64,000 nucleotides of DNA from contig NZ_FOYM01000016.1 of assembly GCF_900115975.1 (NCBI RefSeq), positions 20,871 to 84,870 of the forward strand. Reading direction: 5' to 3'. Position 1 is the first letter of the stretch; every line of letters starts with the position of its first letter. The notes below the pieces were generated by a model. That model was not told the DNA's origin and searched no databases. It was given only the letters and a program-made list of their open reading frames with translations. This document shows positions 6,813 through 34,692 of the stretch, piece by piece. A program made the position numbers and the translations under genes. This DNA comes from Desulfoscipio geothermicus DSM 3669. Its GTDB lineage: Bacteria; Bacillota; Desulfotomaculia; Desulfotomaculales; Desulfallaceae.

Positions 6813-9650
6813 ATGAAACGAAAACTGGTTGAATATAAAATGAAATTCGTGCTGGGCGCGGTAATGCTGGTGCTGTTGGTGCTGCTGGCCAAAATATCCT
6901 ACCTGCAGCTGGTGCAGACCGAAGAATACCGTACCATGGCCCGGAACAACTATATCCGTATTGTGCCGGTTTTTGCCCCGCGGGGGGAAATATTTGACCG
7001 GGACGGGGAAAAAATTGTCACTAACCGGCCTATTTACACCGTATCCATCAACGATTTGAACTTACAGGGCACCGCTTACCACCTCTACCTGGACCGTACC
7101 GGAGCCGACGCCGTGCGTATGGCCGATACTCTGGCCTGGATACTGGCCGGCGATGAGGAAGCGGTATTATATTTCGAGCAAATAAGTGACCAGGAGTTGG
7201 TGATTGGTGATAATTTCACCGAGGCTGAAGCCTATACGGTTAAAAAGAAATTTATCGAGGAAACTATCAAGGACCGCATAAGCGGCAACAAAGTCAAACT
7301 GGAAACAGGCAAACCCCTGGAAATAGCTGTGGCTTATCATCCAGAAACGGTCAAAACTTTGCGCCGGCAGGACCTGGCCTCCTTTGGCGTGAGGATGGAA
7401 AAGGAAACGGATGAACTGAGCAAGCTGGTGGCTATGCTGTTTGATGCGGGCGTATTTGAAGATGAAACCCCTTACGAGGTGGAATCACGGGTGCGGCAAA
7501 ACATCCGGGACAAGAAATGGTACAGGCCCTATGAGCCGGTGCTGGTGGCGGAAGATATTCCGCCCCAGATGGTGGTGGCATTGCGTGAAAAGCAAATGGA
7601 CCTGCCCGGAGTGGTGGTTGATATCAAGCCTACCCGGGCCTATCCCCACAAAGAACTGCTCAGCCACGTACTGGGTTACGTGCAGAACATCAATGCCGAG
7701 CAGTACCGGGAGCATAAAGATGAAGGTTATTTAATGAACGACCTGTTCGGGCAAAACGGCCTGGAAAAGGTTTATGAAAAATACCTGCGCGGCGAGCACG
7801 GCGCCCGGCAGGTGGAGGTGGACGCCAGCAGCCGCCCGGTGCGCGATTTGGGCATGAAGCAGCCGGTGCCCGGCAACGATCTGGTGCTGACTGTTGACCT
7901 GGAATTGCAAAAGGCGGCGGAACAGGCGCTGGCGGACGGGGTAAAACGGGCCCAGCAGGCGGGTTACGTTTATTCCAAGGGCGGTGCGGCGGTGGTGATG
8001 GATGTGAACACCGGGGCTGTCCTGGCCATGGCCAGTTACCCGGGGTTTGAGCCGCAGCTTTTTGAAGGGGGGCTGTCCGAAACTCAATACCGGGAGCTGC
8101 AGGAATCAAAGGCGCTGATGAACCGCGCCATCACCGGCTTATATCCCCCGGGGTCAACATTTAAGATGGTGACGGCGGCGGCCATACTGGAAAATAAGGT
8201 CGTGGATCCCGAATATAAAATGCCCGACCCGGGTTATTTCATGTTAGGCAAAGGGCGTTTCCGGGACTGGAAGCCCGGCGGGCACGGTTCGGTTGACCTA
8301 CGTGAGGCCCTGGAAGTTTCGTGTGACACATATTTTTACAAATTCGGGCTGCAGGTCGGGGTAAATGCCATTGCCCATTACGCCCGGGAATTCGGGCTTG
8401 GGGAAAAAACCGGCATTAATTTGCCCGGGGAAATGGGCGGCGCGGTACCTACCCCGCAATACAAATATGATAAGGAAAAGTCTTTCCTGGTTTGGACGCA
8501 TAAAGATTTTGCCCGGGTTCGCGAACTGAATGAAGCAATTGATAATGCTGATACCGAAGAGCAAAAGCAGCAATTAAGGCGCTTGCGGGATAAAGAACTG
8601 GAAAAACAGCTGAAGAAATTCGAGTGGAATTTGAACTGGCATGCCTACGATACGGTGAACATGTCCACCGGACAGGGTTACAATATGTACACGCCGCTGC
8701 AGTTGGCTGCATACGTAACGGCCATAGCCAACGGGGGTATCCTGTATCGCCCTTACCTGGTGGATAAGATTGTTTCCCCGGACGGCAAGGTGGTTAAAGA
8801 ATTCGCGCCCAAAGTCAGGCAAAAGGTGGATATTAAACCGGATAACCTGCAGATTATCCGGGAAGGGATGCACATGGTGACCTTACCGCCGGCCGGCACC
8901 GCGGCTGCGGTTTTTGCCGGGGCCAAGTATACGGCGGCGGCTAAAACGGGTACAGCGGAAAACGAAAAGGGAGAAGGTAACGCCCACGCCCTGTTTGTGT
9001 CCTTCGCGCCCTATGAAAAACCCGAAGTGGCAGTGGCTGTGGTGTTGGAGTACGGCCATTCCGGCAGCGGTTACGCCGGACCCATTGCCCGGCAGATCCT
9101 GGACGCTTACTTTGCCGGGCAGGAACCGGTCGAACCCGGTGACGCGACGGCACAGAAACCGGGTGACGCCACGACCGGCGTGGAAACGCCGGACCGGGCG
9201 GAAACTGAACAGGCTGACAATCCGGTAGATTGGGCGGCTATACCGTCTTTAAACTGGCCGGGCTGGGAGCCGGAACCCGGTCCCGAAACGACCGGCCCGG
9301 CATCCCGGCCGGCGATGCCGGGAGCCGGGGAACACGCGCAGCCGGCCTCGCCGGCACAAACCACAGTACGGCCCGAAGTGCCGGCCGGGCAGTCACGGCG
9401 GGTGGTTGTTCCTGCTGAGCGGCAACCTGCCCCTGCAACTGCTCCCGCGCCCGAGGCGGTACCCGGCCTACCGGTGCAGCAGTCTGAGCCGCAGCAAGCC
9501 CACCCGGCCCCGTCGATACCGGACCGGGTGCCGGAGCAGAACCTGCCGCCGCAAACGCCCGCACCGCTGCAGGGCGCGCAGGAACAACCGGCCCCGCCGC
9601 CGGCCGGGCCGGAAGAACAGGCGGAAAACCGGCAAAATATTGATGAGTAA
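6813..9650 (+). CDS. mrdA: Class B penicillin-binding protein 2 with long Pro/Ala tail
   Basis: A transpeptidase that cross-links peptidoglycan during elongation, anchored by one N-terminal helix (residues 12-30). The pedestal domain is followed by the catalytic motifs: STFK at about residue 449, SCD near 504 in place of SxN, and KTGTAE near 711. A normal PBP2 of this group ends near residue 770. Here about 175 more residues follow, very rich in P, A, E, Q and G and with no cysteine or hydrophobic helix, so probably an extended extracellular tail. Start ATG 6813, 17 bases after mreD. Confidence 0.93.
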   Translation: MKRKLVEYKMKFVLGAVMLVLLVLLAKISYLQLVQTEEYRTMARNNYIRIVPVFAPRGEIFDRDGEKIVTNRPIYTVSINDLNLQGTAYHLYLDRTGADAVRMADTLAWILAGDEEAVLYFEQISDQELVIGDNFTEAEAYTVKKKFIEETIKDRISGNKVKLETGKPLEIAVAYHPETVKTLRRQDLASFGVRMEKETDELSKLVAMLFDAGVFEDETPYEVESRVRQNIRDKKWYRPYEPVLVAEDIPPQMVVALREKQMDLPGVVVDIKPTRAYPHKELLSHVLGYVQNINAEQYREHKDEGYLMNDLFGQNGLEKVYEKYLRGEHGARQVEVDASSRPVRDLGMKQPVPGNDLVLTVDLELQKAAEQALADGVKRAQQAGYVYSKGGAAVVMDVNTGAVLAMASYPGFEPQLFEGGLSETQYRELQESKALMNRAITGLYPPGSTFKMVTAAAILENKVVDPEYKMPDPGYFMLGKGRFRDWKPGGHGSVDLREALEVSCDTYFYKFGLQVGVNAIAHYAREFGLGEKTGINLPGEMGGAVPTPQYKYDKEKSFLVWTHKDFARVRELNEAIDNADTEEQKQQLRRLRDKELEKQLKKFEWNLNWHAYDTVNMSTGQGYNMYTPLQLAAYVTAIANGGILYRPYLVDKIVSPDGKVVKEFAPKVRQKVDIKPDNLQIIREGMHMVTLPPAGTAAAVFAGAKYTAAAKTGTAENEKGEGNAHALFVSFAPYEKPEVAVAVVLEYGHSGSGYAGPIARQILDAYFAGQEPVEPGDATAQKPGDATTGVETPDRAETEQADNPVDWAAIPSLNWPGWEPEPGPETTGPASRPAMPGAGEHAQPASPAQTTVRPEVPAGQSRRVVVPAERQPAPATAPAPEAVPGLPVQQSEPQQAHPAPSIPDRVPEQNLPPQTPAPLQGAQEQPAPPPAGPEEQAENRQNIDE

Positions 9651-29447: not shown

Positions 29448-29518
29448 CGTTTTAGCAGGAACTTTTGGCCGGTGCGCGAATATCCATTTATTATAAAGAA
29501 AATTGGGGGGACTGCTTG

Positions 29519-29875
29519 TTGATAATTGAACCACAGGTTCTGGCGCAGGTTGCAGTTGAAGCGGCGGAGGAAAAGAAAGCCATGGATATCACCGTATTAA
29601 ACATCGGTGGTGTGTCCGTAGTTGCCGAATATTTTGTTATCTGCAGCAGCCGTTCGCCCGTGCATGCCCGGGCTATAGCCGAGGAGATTGAAAAAAGACT
29701 TCAACAGCTTAATGTCGCCCGACCCCGTAGGGAAGGTCTGAGGACGGGGCAGTGGGTGCTGCTGGATTACGGTTCAGTGGTGGTGCACATCTTTCAGGAA
29801 GAGCAGCGCCGTTTTTACAACCTTGAACACCTGTGGGGGGATGCTCCGGTAGTCAGGTCCCCGATAAGTATTTAA
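29519..29875 (+). CDS. rsfS: Ribosomal silencing factor RsfS
   Basis: A protein of about 118 residues that binds L14 on the 50S subunit and blocks subunit joining under starvation. Family blocks are AVEAAEEKKAMDITVLNI, EYFVICSSRSPVHARAIAEEI, GLRTGQWVLLDYGSVVVHIF and RRFYNLEHLWGDA. The start is TTG 29519 (or TTG 29516), five to eight bases after GGGGGG; the frame from 29465 has no good SD. It closes the nadD-yqeK-rsfS run. Confidence 0.94.
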   Translation: MIIEPQVLAQVAVEAAEEKKAMDITVLNIGGVSVVAEYFVICSSRSPVHARAIAEEIEKRLQQLNVARPRREGLRTGQWVLLDYGSVVVHIFQEEQRRFYNLEHLWGDAPVVRSPISI

Positions 29876-29892
29876 TACTTATAATTTTTACA

Positions 29893-29921
29893 TTGACTTT
29901 ATGGATTGAATATCTTATAAT
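29893..29921 (+). promoter_or_regulatory. Strong promoter of the T-box leader
   Basis: TTGACT (29893-29898) and a perfect TATAAT (29916-29921) are separated by 17 bases, 18 bases after the rsfS stop. Transcription would begin near 29928, 26 bases before the first helix of T-box stem I. Confidence 0.85.
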
Positions 29922-29927
29922 AAGGCT

Positions 29928-30255
29928 CAGGTTTAATAATGAAAAACATTGAAGGGGAGTAGTAATCCATAGCATTATCCCCAGAGAGCCGCCGGTTGGT
30001 GCGAGGCGGTGGGTAATGCGGGTGAACTCGCCCCGGAGTTGCCCGGGGGAAAGCTGTCAAGTACACCGGGCCGGTGCGTGCCGTTAGCACGTTGAGCGGT
30101 TAAAGTTATGGGGATGTAGCTCAGATGGGAGAGCGCCTGAATGGCATTCAGGAGGTCAGGGGTTCGATCCCCCTCATCTCCACCACATAACTTTATCAAT
30201 TAGGGTGGTACCGCGAGTAAACCTCTCGTCCCTAAACAGGACAAGGGGTTTTTTG
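29928..30255 (+). promoter_or_regulatory. Leucine-type T-box leader interrupted by a tRNA
   Basis: Stem I begins with GGGG (29954-29957) paired to CCCC (30031-30034), enclosing the AGTA loop-E motif (29958-29961) and the specifier loop GTGAACTCG; the specifier reads CTC (Leu, 30027-30029). GCATTA/TAATGC forms the upper stem, and AGAGAGCCGCCGGTTGGTG (29983-30001) gives the AG bulge and distal loop. The T-box AGGGTGGTACCGCG (30202-30215) pairs as AGGG...CCCT and CGAG...CTCG, with TGGT to bind the tRNA ACCA end. The competing terminator ends in TTTTTT (30249-30254). Stem III is replaced by a tRNA-Ala gene on a 9-bp helix. Confidence 0.9.
30110..30185 (+). tRNA. tRNA-Ala (anticodon GGC) inside the T-box leader
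   Basis: A full 76-base cloverleaf with encoded CCA. The acceptor stem GGGGATG/CATCTCC contains the G3-U70 pair that marks tRNA-Ala; the D arm is GCTC/GAGC, the anticodon arm CCTGA-ATGGCAT-TCAGG gives anticodon GGC, the T arm is AGGGG-TTCGATC-CCCCT, and the discriminator base is A. It is flanked by TAAAGTTAT (30101-30109) and ATAACTTTA (30187-30195), a perfect 9-bp helix that would present the tRNA as a domain of the leader RNA. It lies upstream of the terminator, so it is transcribed whether or not read-through occurs. Confidence 0.95.
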
Positions 30256-30378: not shown

Positions 30379-32043
30379 ATGATTAAAAATTGGGACCAGA
30401 TAACCATCGGGGACTTGCTGGACCGGGCGGCGGGCCGTTACCCGCACAATGAAGCCTTGGTTTACCCGGACCGGAATCTCAGGTATACATACCGGCAGTT
30501 TCAACAGAAATGCAACCGGGTGGCCAAAGGGTTAATGGCTTTGGGGATCAAACGGGGCGAGCATATCGCCATCCTGGCGCCCAATGTGCCGGAGTGGGTG
30601 ATTTGCCAGTTTGCCAGCGCTAAAATGGGCGCTGTCCTTACAACGGTCAATACCAATTACAAATTATTTGAGTTGGAGTACCTGCTTCGCCAGTCCGATG
30701 CCACCACCTTGATTTTTACCGGCGGGACCAAAGAAACTAACTATATAAATATGGTATATGAACTTTGCCCGGAACTTTATGACAGCATGCCCGGCCGGTT
30801 AAACAGCAAAAAGCTGCCCATGCTGAAAAATCTGATATTTATCGGCGAAGAATCAATGCCGGGAATGTTTACCTGGGAACAAATGCTGGCCCTGGGTGAG
30901 AGAATTTCCGGCGAGGAACTGATAGCCCGGCAGCTTTCCCTGGAGCCGGACGATGTGGCCAACATGCAGTATACCTCGGGTACCACCGGCTTCCCCAAGG
31001 GAGTTATGCTTACGCACCGCAACCTGGTGGGGAATGCTTTGGGTATAGGCAAGTGCATGAATTTCAGTCCCGACGACCGCCTGTGTATCCCGGTGCCGCT
31101 GTTCCATTGCTTCGGTTGTGTGCTGGGCACTTTGTCCTGTGTTTCTTATGCGTCCACCATGGTAGTGCTGGAAACATTCAACCCGGTCAAGGTTCTGGAA
31201 GCGGTGGAGAAAGAGCGGTGTACCGCGCTGCACGGGGTGCCTACCATGTTTATCACCGAGCTGGAGGTGCTGGAAAATCAGCCCTATGACACTTCTTCCC
31301 TGCGCACCGGCATTATGGCCGGAGCGCCGTGCCCCATTGAAGTGATGCGGGCCGTGGTGGAGAAAATGGGCATGCGTGAAATAGTGATCACTTACGGCCA
31401 GACCGAAGCCGCACCGGGCATTACCATGACCAAGACGGATGACCCGCTGGAAGTGAGGGTGGCCACGGTGGGTAAAGCTCTGGACGGGGTGGAGGTCAAA
31501 GTAGTGGACCCGGCCAGCGGAGAAGAACTGCCCCCGGGCCGCCAGGGAGAAATATGCGCCCGCGGTTACAACGTAATGAAGGGGTATTACAAAATGCCCG
31601 AAGCGACCGCTGCCGCCATTGACAAGGACGGCTGGCTGCACACAGGTGACCTGGGAATCATGGATGAAAAAGGTTACCTGCGCATTACCGGCAGGATCAA
31701 GGATATGATCATCCGGGGCGGGGAGAACATTTATCCCCGGGAAATTGAAGAATTCCTCTATACCCACCCGCAGATCAAAGATGTGCAGGTGGTTGGCGTG
31801 CCAAGCAAGAAGTACGGGGAAGAAGTGATGGCCTTTATCCAGTTAAAAGAGGGGGCCGGGGTAACCGATGAGGATGTCAAGAATTATTGCGCGGGTAAGA
31901 TAGCCCGGTATAAAATTCCCTCGTACATCCAATTTGTAGATAGTTACCCCACCACCGCCAACGGCAAAGTGCAAAAATTCAAGCTGCGGGAAATGGGTAT
32001 CAAAAGAATATCCAAAGGGGATGGGACAGCGGGGATAGTTTAA
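30379..32043 (+). CDS. AMP-forming acyl-CoA synthetase
   Basis: A 554-residue adenylate-forming enzyme that activates a carboxylic acid with ATP and CoA. The phosphate loop is YTSGTTGFPKGVMLTH, followed by ITYGQTEAAPG, GWLHTGDLGIMDEKGYL and the C-terminal catalytic lysine in ANGKVQKFKLRE. It resembles medium/long-chain fatty acyl-CoA synthetases; the acid used cannot be read. It is the first gene behind the leucine T-box, 124 bases after the terminator, so leucyl-tRNA supply should control it. A branched-chain acid substrate would fit but is a guess. Start ATG after AGGGGTGA. Confidence 0.88.
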   Translation: MIKNWDQITIGDLLDRAAGRYPHNEALVYPDRNLRYTYRQFQQKCNRVAKGLMALGIKRGEHIAILAPNVPEWVICQFASAKMGAVLTTVNTNYKLFELEYLLRQSDATTLIFTGGTKETNYINMVYELCPELYDSMPGRLNSKKLPMLKNLIFIGEESMPGMFTWEQMLALGERISGEELIARQLSLEPDDVANMQYTSGTTGFPKGVMLTHRNLVGNALGIGKCMNFSPDDRLCIPVPLFHCFGCVLGTLSCVSYASTMVVLETFNPVKVLEAVEKERCTALHGVPTMFITELEVLENQPYDTSSLRTGIMAGAPCPIEVMRAVVEKMGMREIVITYGQTEAAPGITMTKTDDPLEVRVATVGKALDGVEVKVVDPASGEELPPGRQGEICARGYNVMKGYYKMPEATAAAIDKDGWLHTGDLGIMDEKGYLRITGRIKDMIIRGGENIYPREIEEFLYTHPQIKDVQVVGVPSKKYGEEVMAFIQLKEGAGVTDEDVKNYCAGKIARYKIPSYIQFVDSYPTTANGKVQKFKLREMGIKRISKGDGTAGIV

Positions 32044-32047
32044 AAAC

Positions 32048-32177
32048 TTGTTACCCATAACAAAATATGATAATATAAATTCGGTTTGCGAAGGTGTAAA
32101 CCGAAAATGCTCCGATTCCTGGTAGATTGAGCCGGCGGGCCTGTTTTGACATGTTGGTTAAACAGGAGGCCGGTTTT
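32048..32177 (+). promoter_or_regulatory. Candidate promoter and attenuator-like hairpin before leuS
   Basis: TTGTTA (32048-32053) and TAATAT (32071-32076) are 17 bases apart. Downstream, TCGGTTT/AAACCGA (32081-32104) makes a small hairpin, then CCGG and CCTGTTT (32132-32146) pair with AAACAGG and CCGG (32160-32173), followed by TTTTATT. The last looks like a terminator lying 32 bases before leuS. It may end the acyl-CoA synthetase transcript or attenuate leuS; no T-box motif is present here. Confidence 0.5.
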
Positions 32178-32208
32178 ATTCATATAAATTTTATGTCGGG
32201 AGGATGCC

Positions 32209-34692
32209 ATGAAGGACCGTTATGATTTTAAGGAAATAGAAGCCAAGTGGCAACAAAAGTGGGCTGAACAGGATATTTACGCTGTTCCTGATTTCAGCGA
32301 CCGGCCCAAGTATTACTGCCTGGAGATGTTCCCCTACCCCTCGGGAAAACTGCACATGGGGCACGTGCGCAATTATTCCATTGGCGACGTGGTGGCCCGT
32401 TATAAAACCATGCAGGGTTTCAATGTGCTGCACCCCATGGGGTGGGACGCCTTCGGCCTGCCGGCGGAAAACGCGGCCATCAAGCACGGGGCGCTGCACC
32501 CGGCCCAGTGGACCAAGGACAATATAGACGCCATGCGCGCGCAGTTGAAACAGCTGGGCATCAGTTACGACTGGAACCGGGAGGTGGCCACCTGTCATCC
32601 CGGTTACTACAAGTGGACCCAGTGGTTGTTCCTGCAGTTGTATCACAAAGGGCTGGCTTACAAAAAGAAAGCGGCCGTCAACTGGTGTCCTTCCTGCGCT
32701 ACTGTACTGGCCAACGAGCAGGTCAAGGAGGGTATATGCGAGCGCTGCGCCAGTGATGTGGAGAAAAGGGAACTGGAACAGTGGTTCTTTAAGATCACCG
32801 ACTACGCCGACCGGCTGCTGGCCGACCTGGACAAGTTGCAGGGATGGCCGGACAAGGTCAAGATCATGCAGGAGAACTGGATCGGGCGCAGCGAAGGCGC
32901 TGAGATTACTTTTACCATAGACGGGTTTGATGAAACCATCACGGTTTTCACCACCCGGCCGGATACGATATACGGTGTCACTTACATGGTGCTGGCGCCG
33001 GAGCATCCGCTGGTGGAAAAACTGATCGCGGGCCGGCCCCAGGCTGAACAAGTTAAAGAATTTGTAGCCCGGGTACGCAACCAGAGCGAGCTGGCCCGCA
33101 CCTCCACCGAGACGGAGAAAATCGGCCTGCCAACCGGCGCTTACTGTGTCAACCCGCTGAGCGGGGAAAAGGTGCCCATCCTGGTGGCCAACTACGTGCT
33201 TTTGGAGTACGGCACCGGCGCGGTGATGGGCGTGCCGGCGCACGACCAGCGTGACTTTGAATTCGCCCGTAAATACAACCTGCCCATCCGGGTGGTTATT
33301 CAGCCCGAGGGTGCGGAACTGGAACCGGATTCCATGACCGAGGCGTACGACGGCGAGGGCTTGATGGTCAATTCCGGGCCCTTTGACGGCACTCCCAACC
33401 GGGAAGGCATTGCCGCCGTCACCCGTTACCTGGAGGAAAGGGGTCTGGGCAAAGGCCGCGTTAATTACCGCCTGCGGGACTGGCTTATTTCCCGGCAGCG
33501 TTACTGGGGTGCACCCATCCCCATAATTTACTGTGACCGGTGCGGCGTGGTGCCGGTGCCCGAAGAGGATTTGCCCGTCATGCTGCCCATGGATGTGGCC
33601 TTCAAGCCCACCGGTCGTTCACCGCTGGAGGAACACCGGGACTTTGTCAATACCGCCTGCCCGTCCTGCGGCGGTCCGGCCCGCCGGGAAACGGACACCA
33701 TGGACACCTTCATGTGTTCATCATGGTATTACTACCGGTACACCAGCCCGCGGGACGAAGACAACGCCTGGGACCCGGACAAAGTCCGCCGGTGGCTGCC
33801 GGTGGACCAGTACATCGGCGGCGTGGAGCACGCCATATTGCACCTGCTGTACAGCCGGTTCTTTACCAAGGTGCTGTGCGACCTGAAACTGGTGGATAAC
33901 GACGAGCCCTTTACCAACCTGCTCACCCAGGGCATGGTGCTCAAGGACGGGGCTAAAATGAGCAAGTCCAAAGGCAATGTAGTGAGCCCGGAAGATATTG
34001 TGGCCGCCTACGGGGCCGATACCGCCCGGCTGTTCATTCTGTTTGCTTCGCCGCCCGAGCGGGACCTGGAATGGAGCGACCAGGGCGTGGAGGGCTGTTA
34101 CCGCTTCCTGAACCGGGTCTGGCGGTTGGTGGCGCCGCTGGGCGATACGCCGGCGGGCGCGCCATTGCCCGGGAACGCCAAGCTGGCCGGGGTTAACAAG
34201 GACATGCGCCGGGTGACCCACCAGGCTATCAAGAAGGTTACCGAGGATGTGGGCAACCGGTTCAACTTCAATACGGCGGTCAGCGCCATCATGGAACTGG
34301 TCAACGCCATGTACCAGTACCGGGAAGTGCCCGAATGCGACCGCGACGCCGGGGTATTGCGCGAGGCGGTGGATGCGCTGCTGCTGTTGCTGGCTCCCTT
34401 TGCTCCGCATATCACCGAGGAATTATGGGCTGTTACGGGTCACGAGGGCAGCATCCACGCCATGCCGTGGCCGGCTTACGACCCGGAGGCCATTGTAGAG
34501 GACGAAATTACCATCGTGGTGCAGATCAACGGCAAGGTACGGGACCGCATGCTGGTGCCGGCCGGCATGGAGCCGGATGCCATGCAGGAGCTGGTGATGC
34601 AGCAGGAGCGGGTTCAGCAATTGATTGGGGACAAAAAAGTTCTTAAGGTGATTCCCGTGCCCGGTAAGCTGGTAAATATTGTAGTAAAATAA
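32209..34692 (+). CDS. leuS: Leucyl-tRNA synthetase
   Basis: An 827-residue class I synthetase. The HIGH motif is in [23 protein letters not shown] in [18 protein letters not shown]; the CP1 editing domain retains [20 protein letters not shown] and [14 protein letters not shown] with its key Asp. A zinc-type CxxC pair (CPSC near 152, CERC near 173) is present. Start ATG 32209 with GGGAGGA upstream. It is the second gene after a T-box with a Leu specifier, so leucine starvation probably raises its expression, unless the intervening terminator isolates it. Confidence 0.97.

Follow-up and report, generated by a model that had tools for sequence, protein, structure and literature searches.

A tRNA gene at the head of a protein operon is known from Escherichia coli, where metY lies ahead of nusA. 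T-boxes are usually viewed as regulators of mRNA, and their terminated leaders as waste. The leuS-type transcriptional T-box of synthetase genes (RF00230) is made up of stem I with its specifier, stem II, stem III with the RRRNG and AA motifs, the T-box bulge and a terminator, with the synthetase gene downstream, and its stem III ends in a short loop. Insertions are stated to occur in every T-box domain, with unknown function, in section 18 of a T-box review (PMC7583486). Here we describe a leader that shares these parts with the leuS type (the terminator as a hairpin predicted by folding) but differs from it in that stem III ends in a whole tRNA-Ala gene. From sequence analysis we hold with good confidence that this leucine T-box leader before leuS bears a complete tRNA-Ala(GGC) on the tip of stem III and that the leader transcript is likely to be a tRNA precursor as well.

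The stretch of DNA analysed (the window) comprises 64,000 nt of Desulfoscipio geothermicus DSM 3669 (NZ_FOYM01000016.1, positions 20,871–84,870, forward strand), and the features of the locus all lie on its + strand. The leader occupies the gap between rsfS (29465–29875) and a gene pair, acs and leuS. The first gene behind the leader, acs (30379–32043), encodes an AMP-binding acyl-CoA synthetase-like protein (Pfam PF00501), and leuS (32209–34692) encodes leucyl-tRNA synthetase (PF13603, PF00133). A sigma-70-type promoter, TTGACT-17-TATAAT (11 of 12 matches), is predicted from the sequence at 29893–29921. The + strand promoter scan gave no second strong site ahead of the T-box, and as the sole other site listed (9 of 12) overlaps this promoter, there is no promoter-like site between the T-box start and the tRNA. 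The single promoter claimed in a preliminary description of this DNA thus holds as a prediction. Ahead of leuS (31950–32300) neither a + strand promoter-like site nor a terminator was listed. The position of acs, behind the leucine T-box and before leuS, should put it under the same leucine control. An acyl-CoA synthetase-like gene, which is an unusual partner for leuS, stands between the two in the window and in loci L064, L079, L118, L127, L140, L146 and L166.

Rfam RF00230 accepts a full-length T-box at 29940–30236 (134.7 bits against a cut-off of 93; E 8.7e-30); the match spans model positions 1–219, and the surplus bases fall in the loop of stem III. By sequence reading, an AGTA motif is found at 29961–29964. 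The specifier CTC (Leu), placed at 30027–30029 from the sequence and the Rfam alignment, matches the downstream gene leuS and has as its partner tRNA-Leu(GAG), which is present in the genome of the window; the RF00230 score, the specifier and leuS downstream together bear out the leucine T-box of the preliminary description. The sequence GAGCG at 30094–30098, 5' of stem III, reads as the RRRNG motif of the T-box discriminator as defined in excerpts of PMC7778990 and PMC7583486. Stem III, supported by sequence, predicted fold and covariation in relatives, has its 5' strand at 30099–30109 and its 3' strand at 30187–30197, followed by AA at 30198–30199. The T-box sequence AGGGTGGTACCGCG (sequence, Rfam) lies at 30202–30215, with the bulge TGGT at 30206–30209. 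A terminator hairpin with a T run, rival of the antiterminator strand CTCTCGTCCCT, is predicted by folding at about 30221–30255; the terminator described earlier was therefore recovered in the predicted fold but is absent from the sites listed by a strict terminator scan.

ARAGORN called tRNA-Ala(GGC), with G3:U70 and an encoded CCA, at 30110–30185 (+), and Rfam gave a tRNA match of 65.2 bits inside the T-box at 30110–30182, which agrees with the complete gene first described. The tRNA had been thought to stand in place of stem III, and this needs correction: it caps a retained stem III, with the discriminator flanks RRRNG and AA in place. The perfect 9-bp helix reported to present it (30101–30109 with 30187–30195) is exact in the sequence and also appears in the predicted fold. 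The minimum-energy fold of 30094–30206 retained stem III and did not retain the cloverleaf, which was 6.9 kcal/mol less stable than the non-cloverleaf form preferred by ViennaRNA; minimum-energy folding thus fails as proof of the cloverleaf. Elsewhere in the window (9521–9604, - strand) an ARAGORN call of tRNA-Cys has no Rfam match at cut-off and is probably false.

The genome of the window has 49 Rfam tRNA matches and 12 Rfam T-box matches, ten of the latter over cut-off. Its Ala anticodons, from ARAGORN on loci with Rfam tRNAs, are CGC, GGC and TGC; GCC makes up 124 of the 246 Ala codons in eight window ORFs. The preliminary description had asked whether another tRNA-Ala(GGC) exists in the genome, and the embedded gene is the only one found among the 49 tRNA matches. 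ARAGORN called no tRNA in the 11 other T-box matches. An unusually strong promoter was considered as a sign of tRNA-level output, and this argument was dropped because other T-boxes in the same genome have similar promoters (8–12 of 12 matches, of a quality like that of the leuS leader). On contig C27 (13657–13748) of the same genome (G000), next to an ordinary tRNA-Lys, a gene called as tRNA-Cys(GCA) has a peculiar long arm and lacks an encoded CCA; another, ordinary tRNA-Cys is also present.

Public genome contigs were scanned for any tRNA 3' half with CCA followed by GGGTGGNACCGCG within about 60 nt. The anticodon was left free; the pattern requires an encoded CCA and a near-consensus T motif, and other arrangements could escape it. 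This yielded at least 119 stretches, with a called tRNA-Ala(GGC) in 101 of those listed, and 133 loci were examined, comprising the 119 listed stretches, the window and 13 class relatives. Among the matches listed, ARAGORN found a tRNA on the pattern in 120 of the 133 loci: 115 were Ala(GGC) and five were single others, one each of Arg(CCG), Glu(TTC), Pro(GGG), Tyr(GTA) and Ala(CGC). These five, with no leuS match in their loci, were treated as chance. Among the 13 listed loci without a tRNA call, L066 and L092 share their tRNA end with the Ala(GGC) loci, but it lies near the end of the locus. Insertion of any tRNA was rejected as an explanation, given that the pattern was anticodon-free and yet only Ala(GGC) recurs among the matches listed. 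By tblastn, leuS lies downstream in 103 of the 115 loci among these matches (at ≤350 nt in 84); the 12 loci without a leuS match have ≤1173 nt of downstream DNA each, with acs there in five and L162 having 395 nt without a match.

The record titles of the matches listed name Bacillota, Chloroflexota, Thermomicrobiota, Armatimonadota, Actinomycetota, Caldisericota and Coprothermobacterota. The titles of L071 and L168 (Proteobacteria) and L135 (Desulfovibrio) conflict with their tree neighbours; the first two come from genomes placed with the phylum of Sphaerobacter. The junction is also present in records titled as isolates, namely Desulfofundulus thermosubterraneus, D. thermobenzoicus, Syntrophomonas palmitatica, S. 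wolfei, Desulfovirgula thermocuniculi, Orenia metallireducens and Carboxydothermus islandicus. In the class sample the strict pattern was found in 25 of 85 genomes, and in every one a GGC match coincided with it; inspection of 40 further tRNA loci, out of 55 candidates, added 13 embedded loci with variant T motifs, giving at least 38 of 85. Counted by pattern only, and not by ARAGORN calls, there were 41 matches in 199 for the phylum sample, G613 among them being chance-like, and 28 in 300 for the phylum of Sphaerobacter. A phage origin was rejected, as a scan of viral contigs gave two matches, neither with a called tRNA. In loci L060, L097 and L098 another tRNA precedes the embedded one by about 290 nt, and an additional hairpin separates the embedded tRNA from the 3' strand of stem III.

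Both halves of the leader are conserved. Among the matches listed, G3:U70 and ACCA occur in all 115 called tRNA-Ala(GGC) loci, the T-box bulge is TGGT in 110 and TGGC in five, and the CCA end lies 10–50 nt (median 18) ahead of GGGTGG. The TGGC form would fit a tRNA whose position 73 is G. The CTC specifier was found by strict regex in 105 of these 115 listed loci and by eye in six more (L068, L119, L125, L127, L151 and L168); in the remaining four it is unclear (L129), cut off (L130) or accompanied by no recognisable stem I (L152, L171). Nine of 19 diverse embedded loci reached the RF00230 cut-off and ten fell below it. In L069 and L086 (titled Coprothermobacterota and Caldisericota, respectively) the part of stem I ahead of the specifier is very short. 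In L152 and L171 the embedded tRNA and the T-box sequence are both present; L152 also has a promoter of 12 of 12 matches no more than about 110 nt from the tRNA, which gives it the look of a half-lost T-box.

The tRNA flanks were analysed in 113 listed loci (L086 and L130 were left out for short flanks). AA stands at its place in 107 of these, and RRRNG, by a loose test, within 40 nt before the tRNA in 112. At least five positions of the six-pair base of stem III are paired in 88 of the 113 listed loci, against a mean of 43.9 and a maximum of 55 in 500 partner swaps; the 88 loci have 52 versions of the helix, and the other 25 pair fewer than five of the six positions. With one row per 3' strand, the base is paired in 31 of 47 (partner swaps: mean 11.1, maximum 17), and an unanchored helix score gave a weaker contrast, averaging 7.54 for the real partners and 6.15 (maximum 6.38) for swapped ones. 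A promoter of at least 10 of 12 matches precedes the T-box in 86 of 106 listed loci, against a mean of 2.55 and a maximum of 6 in 20 base shuffles. An internal promoter for the embedded tRNA was rejected, since sites of this quality occur within 110 nt of the tRNA in two of the 106 listed loci, L150 and L152.

The embedded gene is also, as a rule, the only copy found. A GGC-tRNA pattern matched 44 of 50 genomes that hold an embedded locus; loops outside the pattern, such as TGGCG in L087 and L089, are taken as the cause of the six failures. A second real GGC copy was present in one of the 50 (G016), and second matches in G013, G021 and G042 were chance-like by eye. Within the class, a second real copy, judged by eye, was found in two of the 38 embedded genomes (G058 and G124), the embedded gene being the only GGC tRNA-Ala found in the other 36.

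Other loci of the class separate the two modules. Fifteen of the 40 inspected class loci have tRNA-Ala(GGC) before leuS with its own promoter (10–12 of 12) within about 45 nt and no T-box motif; three of them (L208, L228 and L241) were tested with Rfam at E 0.01 and gave no T-box. In the 12 that are neither of this kind nor embedded, the tRNA lies away from leuS or there is no GGC call (11 loci), or leuS is 895 nt away (L227). The tRNA thus does occur as an independent gene, which the preliminary description had counted against its own proposal, but on a quick LeuS tree (99 rows, midpoint root) the 15 T-box-less loci fall inside the embedded group, where two changes are needed. On account of this placement we read them as later T-box losses, although midpoint-rooted trees cannot prove direction. 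In loci L208–L212 and L228–L233, all lacking a T-box motif, a GC-rich hairpin-like stretch separates the tRNA from leuS downstream.

The converse arrangement was sought by reading the leuS leaders of 16 class genomes chosen for the absence of a found embedded tRNA. Seven have a leuS T-box with a short empty stem III (G076, G077, G090, G091, G092, G095 and G107) and three have one with a decayed tRNA in stem III (G056, G118 and G126); of the rest, one is at the end of a contig, and in the other five the stretch read contains no T-box motif. These ten leuS T-boxes without an intact tRNA score 103.3–152.3 bits with Rfam. An intact GGC tRNA was found elsewhere in eight of the ten genomes; in G056 and G107 neither an intact embedded nor another GGC tRNA-Ala was found. 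In two genomes the embedded tRNA is decaying while another copy is present. The five states require 10 changes on a careful LeuS tree of 55 rows; shuffled states required 26.6 on average. As T-box and tRNA each occur without the other, the modules do not need each other, and a role for the tRNA within sensing appears unlikely given the empty and decayed forms of stem III.

A leader that doubles as tRNA-Ala precursor, as the preliminary description proposed, is supported by the sole GGC copy found, by the lack of a promoter-like site of its own and by recurrence at at least 115 loci, and we regard it as likely. The one promoter ahead of stem I would start every transcript and, because the tRNA precedes the terminator, terminated and read-through RNAs would both contain it. 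With leucine plentiful, transcription would end at the T-box terminator, and RNase P together with 3' nucleases would process the short terminated RNA to tRNA-Ala(GGC). Following established T-box knowledge, uncharged tRNA-Leu(GAG) would bind both CTC and TGGT, the antiterminator would be kept and polymerase would reach acs and leuS. The two modules would in this way share promoter and transcript without needing each other. The arrangement probably pays off by allowing a promoter that is strong enough for a sole-copy tRNA to precede a synthetase gene, since the attenuator would hold that gene down. Pairing of the tRNA flanks in stem III could hinder RNase P, and may delay it until the 3' trailer has been trimmed. 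We give about an even chance to a wider reading: an old RNA, crossing phyla, would be riboswitch and tRNA gene in one, the cell would draw its tRNA-Ala for GCC from the terminated product, a single transcript would unite the sensing of leucine with the decoding of alanine, and RNase P, in maturing the nested tRNA, would sever the sensor from the switch.

The embedded tRNA might instead contribute to the switching itself: its ACCA end could meet the TGGT bulge in cis, as the preliminary description suggested, or its fold could act as antiterminator scaffold or timer. Its fixed position on stem III in the 115 listed loci, the complementarity of ACCA to the TGGT found in 110 of them and the short distance from CCA to GGGTGG are all in keeping with this. 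The cis pairing, and any part of the tRNA in sensing, are nonetheless weakened by the relatives that keep a well-scoring leuS T-box with an empty (seven) or decayed (three) stem III; five of the 115 listed loci have TGGC, an incomplete match to ACCA, and full tRNA-Ala identity is kept, which a spacer would not need. We therefore consider a switch role improbable. A regulatory cut by RNase P, which would part stem I from the antiterminator, reset or weaken leucine sensing and tie leuS to tRNA maturation, is similarly a slim prospect. It is conceivable from the order of parts, in which the tRNA separates stem I from the T-box, and excerpts of PMC4919913, in which no interplay between the two is described, have both T-box and RNase P taking hold of the tRNA elbow; against it, the decision should fall in the short time that polymerase takes to cover the remaining 50–70 nt, and both flanks of the tRNA are paired by stem III.

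It is less easy to set aside neutral cohabitation, whereby a tRNA gene, having entered a tolerant loop on one occasion, was carried along on a shared transcript without benefit, though we think it rather unlikely. The modules have been lost independently, and the linkage to leuS persists even without a T-box motif; but, by record titles, several phyla have retained the arrangement, in which the embedded gene is the main or sole GGC copy, and a tRNA without its own promoter depends on the leader transcript and is therefore at least functionally coupled to it. That the junction is an artefact, through misassembly or a false tRNA or T-box call, has a vanishingly small probability in our view. Many records are metagenome-assembled, and three carry titles in conflict with their placement, but the covariance scores of T-box and tRNA in the window lie far above cut-off, and an assembly error was rejected because the junction recurs in independent genomes, including those titled as isolates. 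The reading that we prefer remains that of a T-box leader which is at the same time the precursor of its embedded tRNA-Ala.

Under this precursor reading, one transcript likely serves as both gene switch and tRNA precursor. Attenuation would have a useful product whichever way it goes, since termination, too, would supply the precursor of a sole-copy tRNA. The structure also suggests that stem III can carry an entire tRNA without harm to the aminoacylation sensor. The question of insertions in T-box domains, as raised in section 18 of PMC7583486, becomes directly testable in cultured species through this case, with natural controls among relatives that have the insert, an empty stem III, a decaying tRNA, or the tRNA without a T-box motif. 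A literature search met no title or abstract start describing a tRNA inside a T-box (the older T-box surveys of 2008 in RNA and 2009 in MMBR were outside its scope), and the available portions of PMC7778990, PMC7583486, PMC4919913, PMC2494555 and PMC3766115 make no mention of the nested arrangement, which we provisionally regard as undescribed.

Compared with known systems, the leader resembles the metY–nusA type in having a tRNA before a protein gene, probably cut from the same transcript; it differs in that metY stands alone, whereas the tRNA here is nested in a riboswitch that decides on read-through, and the 15 relatives without a T-box motif come closer to the metY arrangement. With the tandem of T-box and ppGpp riboswitch, as outlined in section 18 of PMC7583486, it shares the presence of two RNA modules in one leader; in that tandem the modules stand in series and both are regulatory, whereas in the present leader the tRNA sits inside the T-box, and its predicted role is that of a product rather than a regulator.
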